Position numbers and translations under genes: made by a program
Assembly (NCBI RefSeq): GCF_029946165.1
Contig: NZ_JAQSDZ010000005.1
Span: 310,001 to 374,000 of the forward strand
DNA length: 64,000 nt
DNA from: Methylotenera sp.
GTDB lineage: Bacteria; Pseudomonadota; Gammaproteobacteria; Burkholderiales; Methylophilaceae
Direction: 5' to 3'
Notes under the pieces: model-generated
What the model was told of the DNA's origin: nothing
The model's database searches: none
What the model saw: only the letters and a program-made list of their open reading frames with translations
Shown here: piece after piece, positions 34,346-40,813 of the stretch
How the letters are laid out: each line of letters starts with the position of its first letter
Position numbering within the stretch: position 1 is the stretch's first letter

Positions 34346-35380
34346 TTAATTGATGTGATTGTCGTGCGCAATCGCTAGTTCGTTTTTAGTATGTTGTTTT
34401 CTTATTGCATTTTTTCTATACAAGCTAAGCGCTTCGCCAATTTGCTTAATTGGATGTTTGCTAAAGTACGCGGCTAGAAGCAGTAAACCAGCCAAAGAGG
34501 CTAACACCCAGCTTAAATCAAATGGGGCAACGTCCCGACGCGCAGGTTTTTGTTTTTTCATCGCATCTAAAATGTTATGTACGTTGTCACCATCAACATA
34601 AGTTGAGCCAATTTCTTTAGCGATACTTTTCATATACTCTGCGTTAAGTTTTGAAATAAAGCGATCTTGTTCGCCACTTGCCACGTTGTCATCTCTAACA
34701 CCAAGATTTGATTCGGAAATTTGCGCAATACCAGGTTGTAGTGCAAAGCTTTCATTTGACCAATATCCAATCAATTGATTTTTTTCACTGAGTTTTGGAA
34801 TTGATGCGCCTTTTTCCGAACCTACGCCGACTAATAACCAGCCGTCTGCACCCTGAAAGTTTGTGAGGTCTTTGGTATTGAACGCGTGTAATTTAGGCGC
34901 TTCTTCGCCATCAGTAAAGAATACTACTTGGGCAGTTTCGGGGAAGCTACGAATAGCTCTTGTAATGCTGAACATACCTTCACGAAGGCGGCTATTACCT
35001 GACCAAGCGGTTCTCCAGTCAAGATGGTCAATAGTGTCTTGAATTGCTGCGAAGTTATTGCACACCTCAATTGGGTTATACAAAGCCGCAACGCTACCGC
35101 CTGCAAATAAGCCCACACTGACTTTTGTACCACAAGGTAGTGAAGAAACAACTTCATGTAACATTTTTTGGGTATGTGCCATACGTGATGCTGGTTTACC
35201 ATTAATAGTCGTGTCAACAGTGTTCATGCTTTGTGTAATATCCGCGACTAGTAAATAGGTATAGATATTATGTCTTACTGGGACGGTAATATGAAACATG
35301 GACAACACAAGCATCAGCAAAGCGCCACCCAGTAATGCAGAGTCACGATGCGTTTTAAAATAGACGATAAGCTTTTTCAT
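34346..35380 (-). CDS. mxaL: MxaL-like von Willebrand A protein
   Basis: 344 residues: an N-terminal transmembrane helix (about 15-35), a periplasmic vWA domain, and a C-terminal transmembrane helix (DLSWVLASLAGLLLLAAYF). The metal site is degenerate: D47-x-T49-x-S51 instead of D-x-S-x-S, with a later FTDGEEAP that fits the conserved Asp of MIDAS. MxaL is one of the accessory proteins needed for assembly and calcium loading of MxaFI methanol dehydrogenase. Last gene of the mxaRSACKL run, 11 bases after mxaK. Confidence 0.85.
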   Translation of the reverse strand: MKKLIVYFKTHRDSALLGGALLMLVLSMFHITVPVRHNIYTYLLVADITQSMNTVDTTINGKPASRMAHTQKMLHEVVSSLPCGTKVSVGLFAGGSVAALYNPIEVCNNFAAIQDTIDHLDWRTAWSGNSRLREGMFSITRAIRSFPETAQVVFFTDGEEAPKLHAFNTKDLTNFQGADGWLLVGVGSEKGASIPKLSEKNQLIGYWSNESFALQPGIAQISESNLGVRDDNVASGEQDRFISKLNAEYMKSIAKEIGSTYVDGDNVHNILDAMKKQKPARRDVAPFDLSWVLASLAGLLLLAAYFSKHPIKQIGEALSLYRKNAIRKQHTKNELAIAHDNHIN

Positions 35381-35391
35381 TCACTATTTCT

Positions 35392-35946
35392 CTATGGAAG
35401 GCCAACAGGAATATTACCCATAATCAGTCCTGGTGAGTCGGATTCACCAACGCCAGGCGTGGGAGTTTCTGGTAGCAAAGTAATCACACGGTCTAAGTTT
35501 CGGCGTGTGCCCCAGTTGCTATTATCTAACTTGAGTGCCTGTTTGTATGAGCTATGAGCTTGCGTTAATAGATATTCAACTTCATCTCTCACTTTTGGGT
35601 CATTACCACCGCTGACTTGTAAGCTTTTTAAGAAAAACATATTGCCTATGTTGTGATGTACCGCAGCCCGTTGGCTAGGTGACCCTTTTTCGGTGAGCTG
35701 AGAAAACAGTAAAGTAGCTTCTTTATGCCTATCGTTATTAGCCAACCAATACGCTGTTGCAAACTTCGCTTCATAACTTAGCCTGTCGGTCTGTGGATTT
35801 TTACCAGTGCTAACCGCATGATTAAAAGCATTAATCTGACGTATCCGATTAAGTTCTGCAACAATGCCCGCTGTTGAAGCGACAGCAATTAAAATAAGTG
35901 TAATTGTCAGTTGTTTGACGGTAATAGATTTTAAGCTAAGGCTCAT
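35392..35946 (-). CDS. mxaK: MxaK-like membrane-anchored TPR-type protein
   Basis: 184 residues. One N-terminal transmembrane helix (about 10-30) is followed by helical repeats (AKFATAYWLANNDRHKEATLLFSQLTEKG, HHNIGNMFFLKSLQV, YKQALKLDNSNWGTRRNLDRVITLL), a TPR-like scaffold. The C-terminal tail is Pro/Gly-rich. ATG 35946 overlaps the mxaC stop by four bases (ATGA), preferred over an ATG 15 bases upstream. MxaK is an accessory factor of methanol dehydrogenase biogenesis; its biochemical role is not established. Confidence 0.82.
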   Translation of the reverse strand: MSLSLKSITVKQLTITLILIAVASTAGIVAELNRIRQINAFNHAVSTGKNPQTDRLSYEAKFATAYWLANNDRHKEATLLFSQLTEKGSPSQRAAVHHNIGNMFFLKSLQVSGGNDPKVRDEVEYLLTQAHSSYKQALKLDNSNWGTRRNLDRVITLLPETPTPGVGESDSPGLIMGNIPVGLP

Positions 35947-36932
35947 ATAGTTACTTTCCATGTTCTATGCTCCAGATATTTAACGCTAAGTAATAGAGCA
36001 ATCATAAGTGCTGCAATGATGTAACAGAGTTTTGTATAGTCATGGCCTGGAATTTTTTCCATATACTTAATCGGTTTTCTTTCTTTTTGATTAATATCGG
36101 CTATTGCTGCTGCCAATGATTTAGGATCCTCAGCCTCGTAGGCACTAAAAGGTGTACGCAGTGTTTTAAAATACTCAAAAAGCTCAATCTCTGAGGGCAG
36201 AGGGCCTTCTTCTTTGGGTAGGTATTCGTTAAAAATACTAATGCCTCCCGGCTGTCTTAATACAATCCAATACAGCGTAATATTGTATCTTTGCAACCAT
36301 TCGCGTAGTTTTTGTTGTACATCACCACCCATGCGACCGCCACCGTCAGAAAGAAGAATAATGGCGCGTGAACCTGAATCAGGCACATTTTCAAATAAAC
36401 TCACGGCGCTGGTTAATCCACCACCAATATTTGTTTGGAACAAGGAGTTTCCCGCCGTTGCCTTGATTGCAGCTTGAATAGCTTCGCGGCTTTCTGTAAG
36501 TGGTAATACATACATGGCGGAGTTGCTGAAAGTAATCACACCAATCATGTCATTTTGACGAGAGTTTACAAATTCAGTCATTAATCTTGCAGCAGCTACG
36601 GATTTAGTTTCGCCGACGCGACCTTCAGCAGTACCTCCTGAAAACGGATCGTCCATGCTGGCGCTTCTGTCGATTACCATGCCAATCTGAGCGCCGACAC
36701 CAACACGCTCCACTTTTTGTTCTAAGCTATGTGGCGCTGATAAGCCAATAATGATGCTGATTAGGCTGATTGTAGCTAAGATTTTAAGTAATAAACCAAT
36801 CAAATTTGAGAGTGGGTCACTTGGCAGCATATCTACCCAAGAGTAACTGCGGCTATTAGAACGCTCAAGTAAAATCGGCAGCAGTGCAAGTGGCAATAGC
36901 CATAACACTAATGGATGCAGAAATCCCATCAT
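35943..36932 (-). CDS. mxaC: MxaC-like von Willebrand A (BatA-type) membrane protein
   Basis: 329 residues with the BatA/aerotolerance pattern. Two N-terminal helices start FLHPLVLWLLPLALLPILLERS; then comes a vWA domain with a complete MIDAS (D88-x-S90-x-S92 in MVIDRSASMDD and a later LLSDGGGRMGG), and a C-terminal helix (LCYIIAALMIALLLSV). It is predicted to display a metal-binding vWA module at the membrane to act with MxaR. It overlaps mxaA by four bases. Confidence 0.87.
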   Translation of the reverse strand: MMGFLHPLVLWLLPLALLPILLERSNSRSYSWVDMLPSDPLSNLIGLLLKILATISLISIIIGLSAPHSLEQKVERVGVGAQIGMVIDRSASMDDPFSGGTAEGRVGETKSVAAARLMTEFVNSRQNDMIGVITFSNSAMYVLPLTESREAIQAAIKATAGNSLFQTNIGGGLTSAVSLFENVPDSGSRAIILLSDGGGRMGGDVQQKLREWLQRYNITLYWIVLRQPGGISIFNEYLPKEEGPLPSEIELFEYFKTLRTPFSAYEAEDPKSLAAAIADINQKERKPIKYMEKIPGHDYTKLCYIIAALMIALLLSVKYLEHRTWKVTI

Positions 36933-37924
36933 GCGCTCGCTTCTGGTCTCAAGCCACTTTCACAATCGCGCATGTGGCGGCAAAACTTCATTAACCAAAC
37001 TTTCGAATATTCGTTTAAGTTTTGTGCAGACTCTGCTTCAAAAAACACTTTCCGTGACAGCGCAAAGAACTTTTCAATATCTTTCTTCACTGGTGAAAAA
37101 GCTGGCTTATCTTGAATAAAACTGTCGATATTGTTACCAAACAAACTTGTGCCAGCTGTCTTGTTAAGTGACTCATGAATGCGCGCTGTAGCCTGCTGTA
37201 AACCTGCCGCAGTTTCAGGCATCTTACGAATATCACGATACGCTTTTGCGAAAGGTGCACCCATTCTAGGTAACCAAGCATGCATACCGAGTATATATAG
37301 CAGCCCTAGCAAGGATAAACTTAATATGCCAAAGAGCACTTTTAGCGTTAGTCTTTGTTTGCTTGAGTCGATGAGAAAAGGTGGCGTGAATGGACTCAGC
37401 TCTTCCTTGAGCTTCACCGAGCCAAATACAGATAGTGGCGAAACGCGAAAACTGAAAGAAGGCACACGATATTGCAATACTTCTTTATTCTCAGTGTTTC
37501 TCATTTTAAGGATTTCAGCTCTTAGCGCGGCTGGTTTGGCTAACTTGCCAGTGGTAAACACTTGGTAAGTTAGATGAATGACATGGGTTACGCTATCACT
37601 ATGTTGCATTTCTTCTGCACTGACTTTAGAAAGCTCGATGCCTGAGATTTGGCCTTTCCAGCGATGTTCATAGCCAACAATAGGGATAGATTCTTTCACT
37701 AGTTCATAAGGTTTTTTAACGGTAATAGTAATGGTTCTTTCCAATATATCACCTACAACATAACCTGCGTCTCGCGTTGGATTTTCTTGTTTAATGGTGA
37801 CATGTTTGGTATTAATATCTGGCAACACGACATCAGCTAGAACTGGCTGACTTATGAGAGATAATAATACGCTTGCCGCTAATAAAAATTTTGTATGGAT
37901 ACTTGTTTGCATAAATATACTCAT
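36929..37924 (-). CDS. mxaA: MxaA-like methanol dehydrogenase maturation protein
   Basis: 331 residues. Signal peptide (LLAASVLLSLISQPVLADV), a periplasmic beta-rich domain of about 160 residues (GYVVGDILERTITITVKKPYEL), one transmembrane helix near 195-215 (LFGILSLSLLGLLYILGMHAWL), and a cytoplasmic helical tail. MxaA in other methylotrophs is required for calcium insertion into methanol dehydrogenase. Assignment is by architecture and exact position in R-S-A-C-K-L order. ATG 37924 was used; a second Met four codons on is possible. Confidence 0.83.
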   Translation of the reverse strand: MSIFMQTSIHTKFLLAASVLLSLISQPVLADVVLPDINTKHVTIKQENPTRDAGYVVGDILERTITITVKKPYELVKESIPIVGYEHRWKGQISGIELSKVSAEEMQHSDSVTHVIHLTYQVFTTGKLAKPAALRAEILKMRNTENKEVLQYRVPSFSFRVSPLSVFGSVKLKEELSPFTPPFLIDSSKQRLTLKVLFGILSLSLLGLLYILGMHAWLPRMGAPFAKAYRDIRKMPETAAGLQQATARIHESLNKTAGTSLFGNNIDSFIQDKPAFSPVKKDIEKFFALSRKVFFEAESAQNLNEYSKVWLMKFCRHMRDCESGLRPEASA

Positions 37925-37927
37925 TAA

Positions 37928-38809
37928 TTAAGCTGCCACATATTGGTGGAAGTATTCTGACAGTTGGTCAGCATCGAAGCTGTTCTCCACGAAAAATGGC
38001 TGCATGTCGTAACGTAAAAACAAATTCTCTATGGCGATACGTCTATCGGAAAAACTTTTTAGAATGCGGTCACGATAGGATTTGCGTAAGAATAAGGTGC
38101 GTTTAGCGCCTGTTTCAGGATCGGTGACATTGGTGATGCCAAATTCTGGCAAGTCGCTATATTCAGAGGAGTCCCATAACACAATAGGCACAATATGATG
38201 GCGCTGCATTAACACCAGTGACTCCTCTAAATCGGCAATCGGCATATGAAAATCTGACACCATAAAAATAAGTGAGCGCTCTCTTGGCAGTAATCTTACG
38301 ATTTCTGTAACGCCACGGCTGCCAACTTCCTCTGCTTCATATGTCCTTAAACTTTCGGCCATTTCTAAGGTGGTATGTGGCCTAGCCGAGAGGGTGCATA
38401 ACCAGTCCTCACGCACTACGTCATCAAAACCGATAAAGCCAACCAAATCGCGATTACGGGTGGCAGATTGCGCAACCGATTGTGCAATATCTGCCGCAAT
38501 TTCAATTTTTTTCTTGGAGCTGCCATCTAGCTTAGTGCTGGCATACTGCATAGAGCCAGACATATCACACAGCACAAACACAGGCGTGACACTTTTTTGG
38601 TTGAAAATGCGTACATGAACCTGTTCAAGCGGATCACGTATGGTTTGGCGTATGTCTATGCGGCGCGGATCTGGGTAGGCGAGTAGGGTGGTATGCCCAC
38701 GAAACTCCATGCCCATGCCGCGCTGGTTGCTTTTGTGTCTGCCAGGTCTGCGTGAGCGTGAGCGCCACGCAATGTGATAACTGAATTCTTTTATATGGGC
38801 TTGTGACAT
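37928..38809 (-). CDS. mxaS: MxaS-like DUF58 protein
   Basis: 293-residue cytoplasmic DUF58 protein. It carries the family motif near the N terminus (RGHTTLLAYPDPRRIDIRQTIRDPLEQVHVR) and a vWA-like region with D82-x-S84-x-S86 in FVLCDMSGSM. DUF58 proteins are the standard partners of MoxR ATPases; MxaS is the partner of MxaR. Eight bases follow mxaR. Basic near the N terminus (RSRSRRPGRHK). Confidence 0.87.
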   Translation of the reverse strand: MSQAHIKEFSYHIAWRSRSRRPGRHKSNQRGMGMEFRGHTTLLAYPDPRRIDIRQTIRDPLEQVHVRIFNQKSVTPVFVLCDMSGSMQYASTKLDGSSKKKIEIAADIAQSVAQSATRNRDLVGFIGFDDVVREDWLCTLSARPHTTLEMAESLRTYEAEEVGSRGVTEIVRLLPRERSLIFMVSDFHMPIADLEESLVLMQRHHIVPIVLWDSSEYSDLPEFGITNVTDPETGAKRTLFLRKSYRDRILKSFSDRRIAIENLFLRYDMQPFFVENSFDADQLSEYFHQYVAA

Positions 38810-38817
38810 TTGAATTA

Positions 38818-39834
38818 CTAAGGCGCTGCAATCGCATGAATGATGCCGCTCAACATATCGCGTGCAATCTCCGTACGGCGCATTTCATATACTGGGCTGA
38901 ATACCAAACGGTGAGCAACAGTGGCATGAAATACATCATGAATATCTTCTGGTAAGACGGCAGTACGTTCATTCAGCCATGCATTTACACGCGCGGCGCG
39001 CAACACCATCGCCATCCCTCGTGGGCTTGCGCCAGATAACACCAAGCGGTTCATATCCACACCAGAAACTTTTACGCCAAATTCAGTTGGCGTTTTAGTC
39101 GCGCGCCACAAGTTAAGAACATAACTGCGTAGAGTTGGGCTTGCAGAAATGCTGTTTTGTAAAATACTGGCAAACTTATTTAACTGATCAAATTGCAAAA
39201 TATTTTCAGGTACGTTTGAAACTAGCGCATCTGCGTCATGGAAACGTGTGTCAAATACTAATGACTCCATAATGCTGTCGTCATTTGGCACAACAATTGG
39301 AATTTCCATCATAAAACGGTCACGCGCAGCTGATGGAATATCGAAAGTCTCTTCTTTTTCCACTTGGTTACGGTCAGCAAATACCAACATATGCGGGAAA
39401 TGATGCTCTTTATTAAACGCGGTTAAAGTACGTTCTGCCATTACACGCAATAACAAAGAGTGAACTTGAGGACGCGCGCGGTTAATCTCGTTAAAGAAAA
39501 ATACGGATAGATTTTCACCAGACATCAAAATAGGGCCAGGACTTACGTGAGGTTTACCATCTTCACCAAGATAAGTGTGATACACCAAATCATTAGGCAT
39601 CAAGTCGATGGTGCCCTCGATACGTTGATAGCCGCCACCGATACCGCGTGTAAACGCACGTAGTAGTGTGGTTTTACCAACGCCGACATCACCTTCAAGC
39701 AATACATGTCCGCGTGCGAATATTGACGTAGTAATCAAGCGAACTGGAATATGCTGACCCACAATCACTTTGTTGACTTCAGACTCCAAGGTAAGTGCAT
39801 GGTTGCGCCAGTCGGCTAGTTGTATATCGCTCAT
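38818..39834 (-). CDS. mxaR: MxaR, MoxR-family AAA ATPase
   Basis: 338-residue AAA+ ATPase of the MoxR group. Walker A GDVGVGKT at residues 48-55, Walker B-like VFFFNEINRARPQ, sensor-type ADRNQVEKEETFDIPSAARDRF, and the C-terminal lid (SGASPRGMAMVLRAARVNAWLNERTAVLPEDI). MoxR ATPases work with vWA proteins as chaperones for metal or cofactor insertion. First gene of the mxaRSACKL operon, with no mxaF, mxaJ, mxaG or mxaI upstream. Confidence 0.9.
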   Translation of the reverse strand: MSDIQLADWRNHALTLESEVNKVIVGQHIPVRLITTSIFARGHVLLEGDVGVGKTTLLRAFTRGIGGGYQRIEGTIDLMPNDLVYHTYLGEDGKPHVSPGPILMSGENLSVFFFNEINRARPQVHSLLLRVMAERTLTAFNKEHHFPHMLVFADRNQVEKEETFDIPSAARDRFMMEIPIVVPNDDSIMESLVFDTRFHDADALVSNVPENILQFDQLNKFASILQNSISASPTLRSYVLNLWRATKTPTEFGVKVSGVDMNRLVLSGASPRGMAMVLRAARVNAWLNERTAVLPEDIHDVFHATVAHRLVFSPVYEMRRTEIARDMLSGIIHAIAAP

Positions 39835-39898
39835 TTAATGTGCCCTAACTAAGTATTAGTGGTAATTGATTTGTAGGAATTTGTAACAGAATGTAGCT

Positions 39899-39927
39899 AG
39901 TGTAATTGTTTTATTTAAAGGTGTAAA
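39899..39927 (-). promoter_or_regulatory. Candidate mxaR promoter
   Basis: On the minus strand, TTTACA (39927 to 39922), a 17-base spacer, and TACACT (39904 to 39899), about 65 bases ahead of the mxaR ATG. The -35 box is inside the palindrome at 39919-39944. Confidence 0.45.
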
Positions 39928-39944
39928 CAGATCTGTATACACCT
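39919..39944. promoter_or_regulatory. 26-bp near-perfect palindrome, operator candidate of the mxa operon
   Basis: The left half AGGTGTAAACAGA pairs with the right half TCTGTATACACCT at 12 of 13 positions; the single mismatch is A opposite A. It covers the -35 hexamer of the candidate mxaR promoter, a position typical of repressor or dual regulator sites. No T-run follows it in either direction, which argues against a terminator. Confidence 0.6.
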
Positions 39945-40233
39945 GGCTACAATTTATTAATCTTAAGTAATAACTCCAGAAAAGCAGATATGGAAAGGTG
40001 ACAAGCTGAAGTTTTAAAGTTTATTGCTCATCAAGCTTTAATTAAGTGCTTCTGCTTGAAATAACCTATCATTTATTCAATAGATTATTAAGTAAGTGTA
40101 AATCCTATTGCTTATGAATTACCACACATGAAAAAATTCGACGCATGCTTGTAAAACTCACATATAACCCCATATTATGTTGAGCTAATAATCAAACTTG
40201 TGATAAAAAATGCTAATTAAGCGTGAATAAGAC

Positions 40234-40260
40234 TTTCGCTAAATCGGATTTCCAGCGAAA
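40234..40260 (+). promoter_or_regulatory. Hairpin in the fabA leader
   Basis: TTTCGCT (40234-40240) and AGCGAAA (40254-40260) are perfect 7-base arms around a 13-base loop, 38 bases before the fabA ATG. It could be an RNA leader structure or a dyad operator of a fatty-acid regulator. Confidence 0.4.
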
Positions 40261-40297
40261 ATAGCAACTTAGATAATTATATTTAGAATAAAAAAAC

Positions 40298-40813
40298 ATG
40301 CAAAAACAAAGCAGCTTTACAAAAGAAGAGTTACTTAAGTGTGGCAGGGGTGAAATGTTTGGTGAGGGCAATGCACAATTACCATTGCCTCCAATGTTGA
40401 TGTTTGATCGCATTGTTTCTATTACAGAAGATGGTGGTAAGTATGGCAATGGCCAAATTATTGCTGAGTTAGATATCAACCCAGATCTATGGTTTTTTCA
40501 ATGCCATTTCACTGGTGACCCTGTAATGCCAGGTTGCTTAGGCTTAGATGCTATGTGGCAGTTGGTTGGATTTTATTTAGGTTGGGCAGGTGGACCTGGT
40601 CGCGGACGTGCATTAGGTGCGGGTGAAGTTAAATTTACTGGGCAAGTGTTACCAAGCGCTAAAATGGCAACCTATACTATTGATTTGAAACGTGTGATTA
40701 TGCGTAAATTAGTGATGGGTGTGGCCGATGCCACCATGAGTTTAGATGGTCGTGAAATATATGCGGCTAATGATTTGCGTGTGGGTTTGTTCACACAAAC
40801 GGACAATTTTTAA
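40298..40813 (+). CDS. fabA: Beta-hydroxydecanoyl-ACP dehydratase/isomerase
   Basis: Introduces the cis double bond in anaerobic unsaturated fatty acid synthesis. 171 residues with the hot-dog active site [23 protein letters not shown] (His and Asp), [19 protein letters not shown] and the N-terminal [12 protein letters not shown]. Paired with fabB 42 bases downstream, the standard fabAB operon. A long leader with a hairpin precedes it. Confidence 0.96.

Follow-up and report, generated by a model that had tools for sequence, protein, structure and literature searches.

A selected, fabA-linked mxaRSACKL operon in a Methylotenera genome without MxaFI, with XoxF as its probable client

The window analysed here, a stretch of 64,000 nucleotides (nt) from Methylotenera sp. 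(assembly GCF_029946165.1, contig NZ_JAQSDZ010000005.1, positions 310,001 to 374,000), carries an mxaRSACKL operon, the accessory cluster known for the maturation of the calcium-type form of methanol dehydrogenase (MDH). A sequence-only reading had placed six genes there in the order R-S-A-C-K-L, and the list of open reading frames (ORFs) confirmed it. The operon is real: six co-oriented, tightly spaced ORFs on the minus strand, in that order, fill positions 34346-39834 (aa, amino acids; TM, transmembrane; vWA, von Willebrand factor A):

38818..39834, minus strand: mxaR, MoxR-type AAA+ ATPase, 338 aa (Pfam AAA_3, AAA_lid_2 and AAA_5)
37928..38809, minus strand: mxaS, DUF58/vWA protein, 293 aa (Pfam DUF58; DMSGS motif; no TM-like stretch)
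36929..37924, minus strand: mxaA, 331 aa (TM-like segments near residues 12-37 and 191-218)
35943..36932, minus strand: mxaC, BatA-like membrane vWA protein, 329 aa (Pfam VWA_2 and VWA; DRSAS motif; TM-like stretches)
35392..35961, minus strand: mxaK, 189 aa (one TM-like segment; 28% identity to MxaK of a second set, on contig C24)
34346..35380, minus strand: mxaL, membrane vWA protein, 344 aa (Pfam VWA_2; DITQS motif; two TM-like stretches)

From mxaR to mxaL, the intergenic distances are 8, 3, -4, -19 and 11 nt. The proposal that gaps or overlaps of at most 11 nt link the genes held for the gaps; the overlaps reach 19 nt, a value that depends on the start of mxaK, since its first ATG gives the 19-nt overlap with mxaC and its sixth codon, also ATG, reduces this to 4 nt. 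Among the protein architectures proposed, Pfam supported those expected of an accessory cluster of this kind (a MoxR ATPase, a DUF58 protein and two membrane vWA proteins), with MxaC also giving a weak match to the BatA model of NCBIfam. The tetratricopeptide repeats assigned to MxaK were not supported: neither MxaA nor MxaK matched a Pfam or NCBIfam model at E 0.001. Both were recognisable by pairwise matches to the second cluster of the same genome and to the mxaFI-linked set, and mxaA was named by its position and by homologues in 36 of the 37 genomes of the genus searched. The closest named matches of MxaA are Methylotenera metagenome-assembled genomes (MAGs; 90% and 88% identity), and a scan of named genomes with this single query returned eight loci, all from MAGs. 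The only match of MxaA among PDB sequences, at E 0.92, was dismissed. TM-like stretches are present in MxaC, MxaL, MxaA and MxaK and absent from MxaR and MxaS. Seven other loci (L069, L071, L076, L149, L214, L222 and L225) carry two mxaL-like genes in tandem at the operon end, where the window has one.

The motifs of these proteins had been described as intact, which calls for one correction. As in other MoxR-vWA chaperones, the window copies have Walker A (GDVGVGKTT in MxaR) and the first motif of the metal ion-dependent adhesion site in the vWA proteins, present as DxSxS in MxaC and MxaS and as DxTxS in MxaL. Among the 74 clusters compared below, Walker A was found in 72, and DxSxS, searched with a loose pattern, somewhere in MxaS and MxaC in all 74. 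The exception is Walker B. MoxR proteins usually carry Asp-Glu there, whereas MxaR reads FFFNEINRA, with Asn at the position usually occupied by Asp. Because this Asn is common to one example each of four paralogue types, including the mxaFI-linked MxaR, and because Asn-Glu was found in 72 of the 74 clusters (the pattern could not read the remaining two), it would seem to be characteristic of the family and no sign of damage. The NEIN sequence may mean that ATP hydrolysis is altered in this branch of MoxR proteins.

The suggestion that the cluster is maintained was borne out by comparison with three close relatives, in which the reading frames are intact and the proteins 88-100% identical. The ratio of nonsynonymous to synonymous substitution rates (dN/dS) was 0.002-0.010 in mxaR, 0.019-0.090 across the remaining five genes and, in the same comparison, 0.021-0.029 in fabA. 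A fourth comparison (L068), in which silent sites were saturated for several genes, was not used. The operon is under strong purifying selection and is not a leftover.

The cluster had also been said to lack the enzyme it normally serves, and the genome (2.94 Mb in 27 contigs, listed as 100% complete) agrees with this. It encodes five full-size pyrroloquinoline quinone (PQQ) alcohol dehydrogenases. Four have a XoxF structure (6oc5 or 6dam) as their best PDB sequence match, and the fifth, a 619-aa protein, an ethanol dehydrogenase. All four MDH-type enzymes carry WDYD, the Asp of which marks lanthanide-type enzymes, and none carries WDFA, the motif found at the aligned position in MxaF of a relative (G036). 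In the loci read, 40 ORFs of at least 450 aa matching the motif pattern had DYD and 9 had DFA; the loci overlap, so that these are not independent enzymes. A search with PF02315 found no MxaI in the genome. The controls within this genome were blind, but the same model detects MxaI among relatives (7 of 61) and across the family (44 of 187 genomes), and the negative result therefore counts. Neither an adjacent mxaFJGI cluster nor mxaFI elsewhere in the genome was found. One contig, C17, carries a xoxFJG-like cluster, in which xoxFJ are followed by three short ORFs that are alike in size and start (194, 185 and 186 aa; L026:36-2211). One of the three was named XoxG by position, and the cytochrome partner may be multiplied. 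At another locus (L025:6822-10783) a XoxF-type gene lies behind a 662-aa ORF that we take to resemble acetyl-CoA synthetase, a hint of ethanol use.

The second, diverged mxaRSACKL set of the genome, on contig C24, is 28-63% identical gene by gene to that of the window. To place the two, we used a tree of 74 clusters in which R, S, A and C were present, from loci chosen among homologue matches and not from all genomes. By tree position, 50 clusters are type i, 10 type ii (C24-like), three type iii (mxaFI-linked) and nine type iv, and two belong to other families of the order; the FastTree local supports (1267 columns) were 0.97 for type i, 1.0 for each of ii, iii and iv, 1.0 for i with ii and 0.99 for iii with iv. 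The window operon falls in the type-i clade, apart from the mxaFI-linked clusters, of which the tree holds only three rows. Moreover, a type-i operon and an mxaFI-linked cluster coexist in three genomes (G007, G025 and G036). The view that a classical cluster has been left without its enzyme is thus not supported, given the different paralogue clade, the location beside fabA and this coexistence, and displacement of a classical cluster from mxaF was rejected on the tree and the coexistence. Near three type-iv sets (L100, L139 and L144) are genes that we take to be response-regulator-like. Together with the xoxF-like genes also found there, they resemble an island described in PMC4109929.

The chromosomal neighbours are those named in the sequence-only reading, fabA upstream and ygfX downstream:

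40298..40813, plus strand: fabA (TIGR01749), divergent neighbour and syntenic marker, not part of the machine
39835..40297, no strand: mxaR-fabA intergenic region, 463 nt, presumed to hold promoters for both sides

A scan of positions 39700-40400 gave 5 promoter-like matches, compared with a mean of 2.8 (sd 1.5) in shuffled sequence, little above chance and uninformative. Both fabA and fabB diverge from mxaR, and beyond mxaL, after a gap of 17 nt, lie a convergent gene labelled ygfX (Pfam Cpta_toxin) and ygfZ. The surroundings of the type-i clusters in the loci read are mostly the same, fabA-fabB and ygfZ-ygfX. In 42 of the 50, fabA is divergent and no more than 3 kb from mxaR, at 91-663 nt except for one at 2450 nt; in three of the others the contig breaks off, and fabA is absent from this position in five (L069, L081, L222, L223 and L225). 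For the family's other genera, 20 loci were read: fabA is the neighbour in 16 and not in three, and one (L209) ends at the contig start.

Retention in genomes without MxaI had been set beforehand as a check, and it proved strong. The family sample comprised 187 genomes, 119 of them of high quality (at least 90% complete and at most 5% contaminated), and XoxF was scored at E 1e-60; outside the family, 24 genomes of the order were searched, one per family. MxaC, whose paralogue type these counts do not distinguish, was found in 175 of the 187 genomes, MxaI in 44 and XoxF in 166; for the high-quality genomes the numbers were 118, 40 and 112. MxaC was present in 78 of the 79 high-quality genomes negative for MxaI, again without typing of the paralogue, and the sole high-quality genome lacking it (G170) has XoxF and no MxaI. 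In the genus of the window MxaI was found in 7 of the 37 genomes. Two genera with small genomes of 0.7-1.4 Mb, g26 and g40, had no MxaI (0/31 and 0/16). Their MxaC counts were 24 of 31 and 16 of 16, with 17 and 16 of the positive genomes, respectively, giving a single match; completeness does not exceed 84% in the seven g26 genomes that lack MxaC. Exactly one XoxF match was obtained in 24 of the 31 g26 and 11 of the 16 g40 genomes. All six MxaC loci read from these genera have type i as best match, and the five long enough for the tree are all type i.

The operon is real and selected and occurs across the family, and its client is probably XoxF. We consider it reasonably probable that the six genes encode a maturation machine of the MoxR AAA+/vWA kind, tethered to the membrane, and that it serves XoxF here. 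The likeliest client is the XoxF encoded in the xoxFJG-like cluster on C17, which we call XoxF4 after the family literature and not from a tree. The sequence-only reading had named XoxF as a possible alternative client. By analogy with other MoxR/vWA pairs, MxaR would hydrolyse ATP and act through its vWA partners, MxaS being presumably cytoplasmic and MxaC and MxaL predicted to lie in the membrane. Together with MxaA and MxaK, these proteins would open or hold the apo-dehydrogenase, and the metal, here presumably a lanthanide, and PQQ would then be seated.

XoxF is favoured by the retention described above and by the linkage of some sister clusters to xoxF; the absence of MxaI, the WDYD motif in all four MDH-type enzymes and the purifying selection point the same way. 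In one MxaI-negative genome (L152 of G032) a type-ii mxaR starts 375 nt after the end of a co-oriented XoxF gene with WDYD. In two others, type-iv sets lie about 4.5 kb (L144, G016) and 9 kb (L139, G001) from XoxF-like genes with WDYD. In the MxaI-negative G034 (L146), 3.7 kb separate the mxa cluster from a XoxF fragment, and in G037, an MxaI-negative genome of another family, mxaL is followed at the end of the contig by xoxJ and a 110-aa end of xoxF (L134). Overall, the mxa clusters of G016, G001, G034 and G037 are about 2.6-9 kb from xoxF genes or fragments. Pelagic strains are reported to possess only XoxF4-1 (PMC6794327), and g26 and g40, judging by their small genomes, would be such strains. 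XoxF4 of M. mobilis showed no activity when produced in E. coli, and its reconstitution failed, but the enzyme from the native host was active, at below 1 U/mg (PMC6028718). In other systems, MoxR/vWA pairs insert metals (PMC13036017, PMC9976466).

Several observations weigh against XoxF as the client. The E. coli failure is not specific, because XoxF5 of Methylomonas was likewise inactive from E. coli. Expression of mxaRSACKL in M. extorquens AM1 drops by 4.3-7.0 log2 units in response to lanthanum, and that of xoxFGJ goes up (PMC6414531); XoxF of that lineage therefore seems not to need the set. The type-i operon never adjoins xoxF or another dehydrogenase gene in the loci read, only L152 among the 10 type-ii clusters adjoins xoxF, and a XoxF-like gene was present in the stretch read, or in one adjoining it, for four of the nine type-iv sets. 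XoxF occurs without MxaC in G170 (98% complete), where it lies with xoxJ and xoxG-like genes (L242), and in G026 (80%); fabA was not found in G026 nor met in the roughly half of G170 read, so that for both genomes loss and an assembly gap are not separable. Finally, MxaC occurs without a XoxF match at E 1e-60 in seven of the 119 high-quality genomes, drafts of about 30-150 contigs (G070, G099, G151, G152, G161, G183 and one further row, G204 by elimination). Fragmented assemblies may explain these mismatches. The main text of a transposon study (PMC7391723) does not name mxaR, mxaS, mxaA, mxaC, mxaL or MoxR and says little on the question.

Some of these observations would fit an operon that matures another membrane or periplasmic client common in the family, such as an envelope or respiratory protein, its kinship with the MDH set reflecting ancestry only. 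The mostly fabA-fabB and ygfZ-ygfX surroundings without a dehydrogenase, the apparent independence of AM1 XoxF and the genomes in which XoxF and MxaC occur apart (G170, G026 and the seven high-quality ones) all point that way. We nevertheless regard this as rather unlikely, since xoxF or mxaF is found next to other paralogues of the set or close by and since XoxF and MxaC mostly occur together, although the latter is weak evidence in a methylotrophic family. It is more improbable still that the operon serves another PQQ alcohol dehydrogenase here, either a different XoxF-type enzyme or the ethanol-dehydrogenase-like protein. With five such enzymes in the genome, two mxa clusters could divide the clients, but small genomes in which only one XoxF match was obtained keep MxaC, of type i where read, and extra XoxF enzymes are thus not needed. 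That the operon is a remnant of a vanished MxaFI system and is itself being lost, as the absence of MxaI and of the MxaF motif might suggest, is hardly credible and was rejected on the selection and retention described above and on a clade distinct from the mxaFI-linked one.

Returning to XoxF as the client, a broader version of the proposal is possible, if somewhat doubtful: the fabA-linked operon may be the ancestral, family-wide, ATP-driven lanthanide and PQQ loader of Methylophilaceae XoxF4, and the mxaFI-linked set a separate, patchy paralogue. The operon bears on the question of how lanthanides enter XoxF. For XoxJ, it has been suggested that it holds the apo-enzyme for insertion of PQQ and metal (PMC12997753). 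In the parts of the literature on the subject available to us, we found no test of mxaRSACKL for XoxF. Because small genomes that give one XoxF match have a single conserved locus, the client question can be tested directly by knockout.

Among known systems, NorQ/NorD and the other MoxR-vWA metal-insertion pairs (PMC9976466, PMC13036017) share the logic of an AAA+ MoxR protein working with a vWA protein. They have another client, and the mxa set has extra subunits in comparison; the likeness is one of described logic, not of alignment. The classical, mxaFI-linked cluster (type iii) has the same six genes in the same order as the window copy, but is only 22-56% identical to it gene by gene and belongs to another clade, and the window copy has no adjoining dehydrogenase. 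Closest are the mxaRSACKL(D) clusters of Methylophilaceae, of the same gene order, and that they are kept in the family as a core, also in strains without mxaFI, is already published (PMC4109929). As in our genome, Methylotenera mobilis JLW8 and M. versatilis 301 have two accessory copies, no mxaFJGI, and xoxF (Table 4 of that paper). For the additional clusters, the same study reports a location that is not strictly conserved, whereas here type i lies with fabA in 42 of 50 clusters, the strains of that study being themselves unchecked. The mostly fixed location beside fabA and the separate paralogue clade refine what was published.

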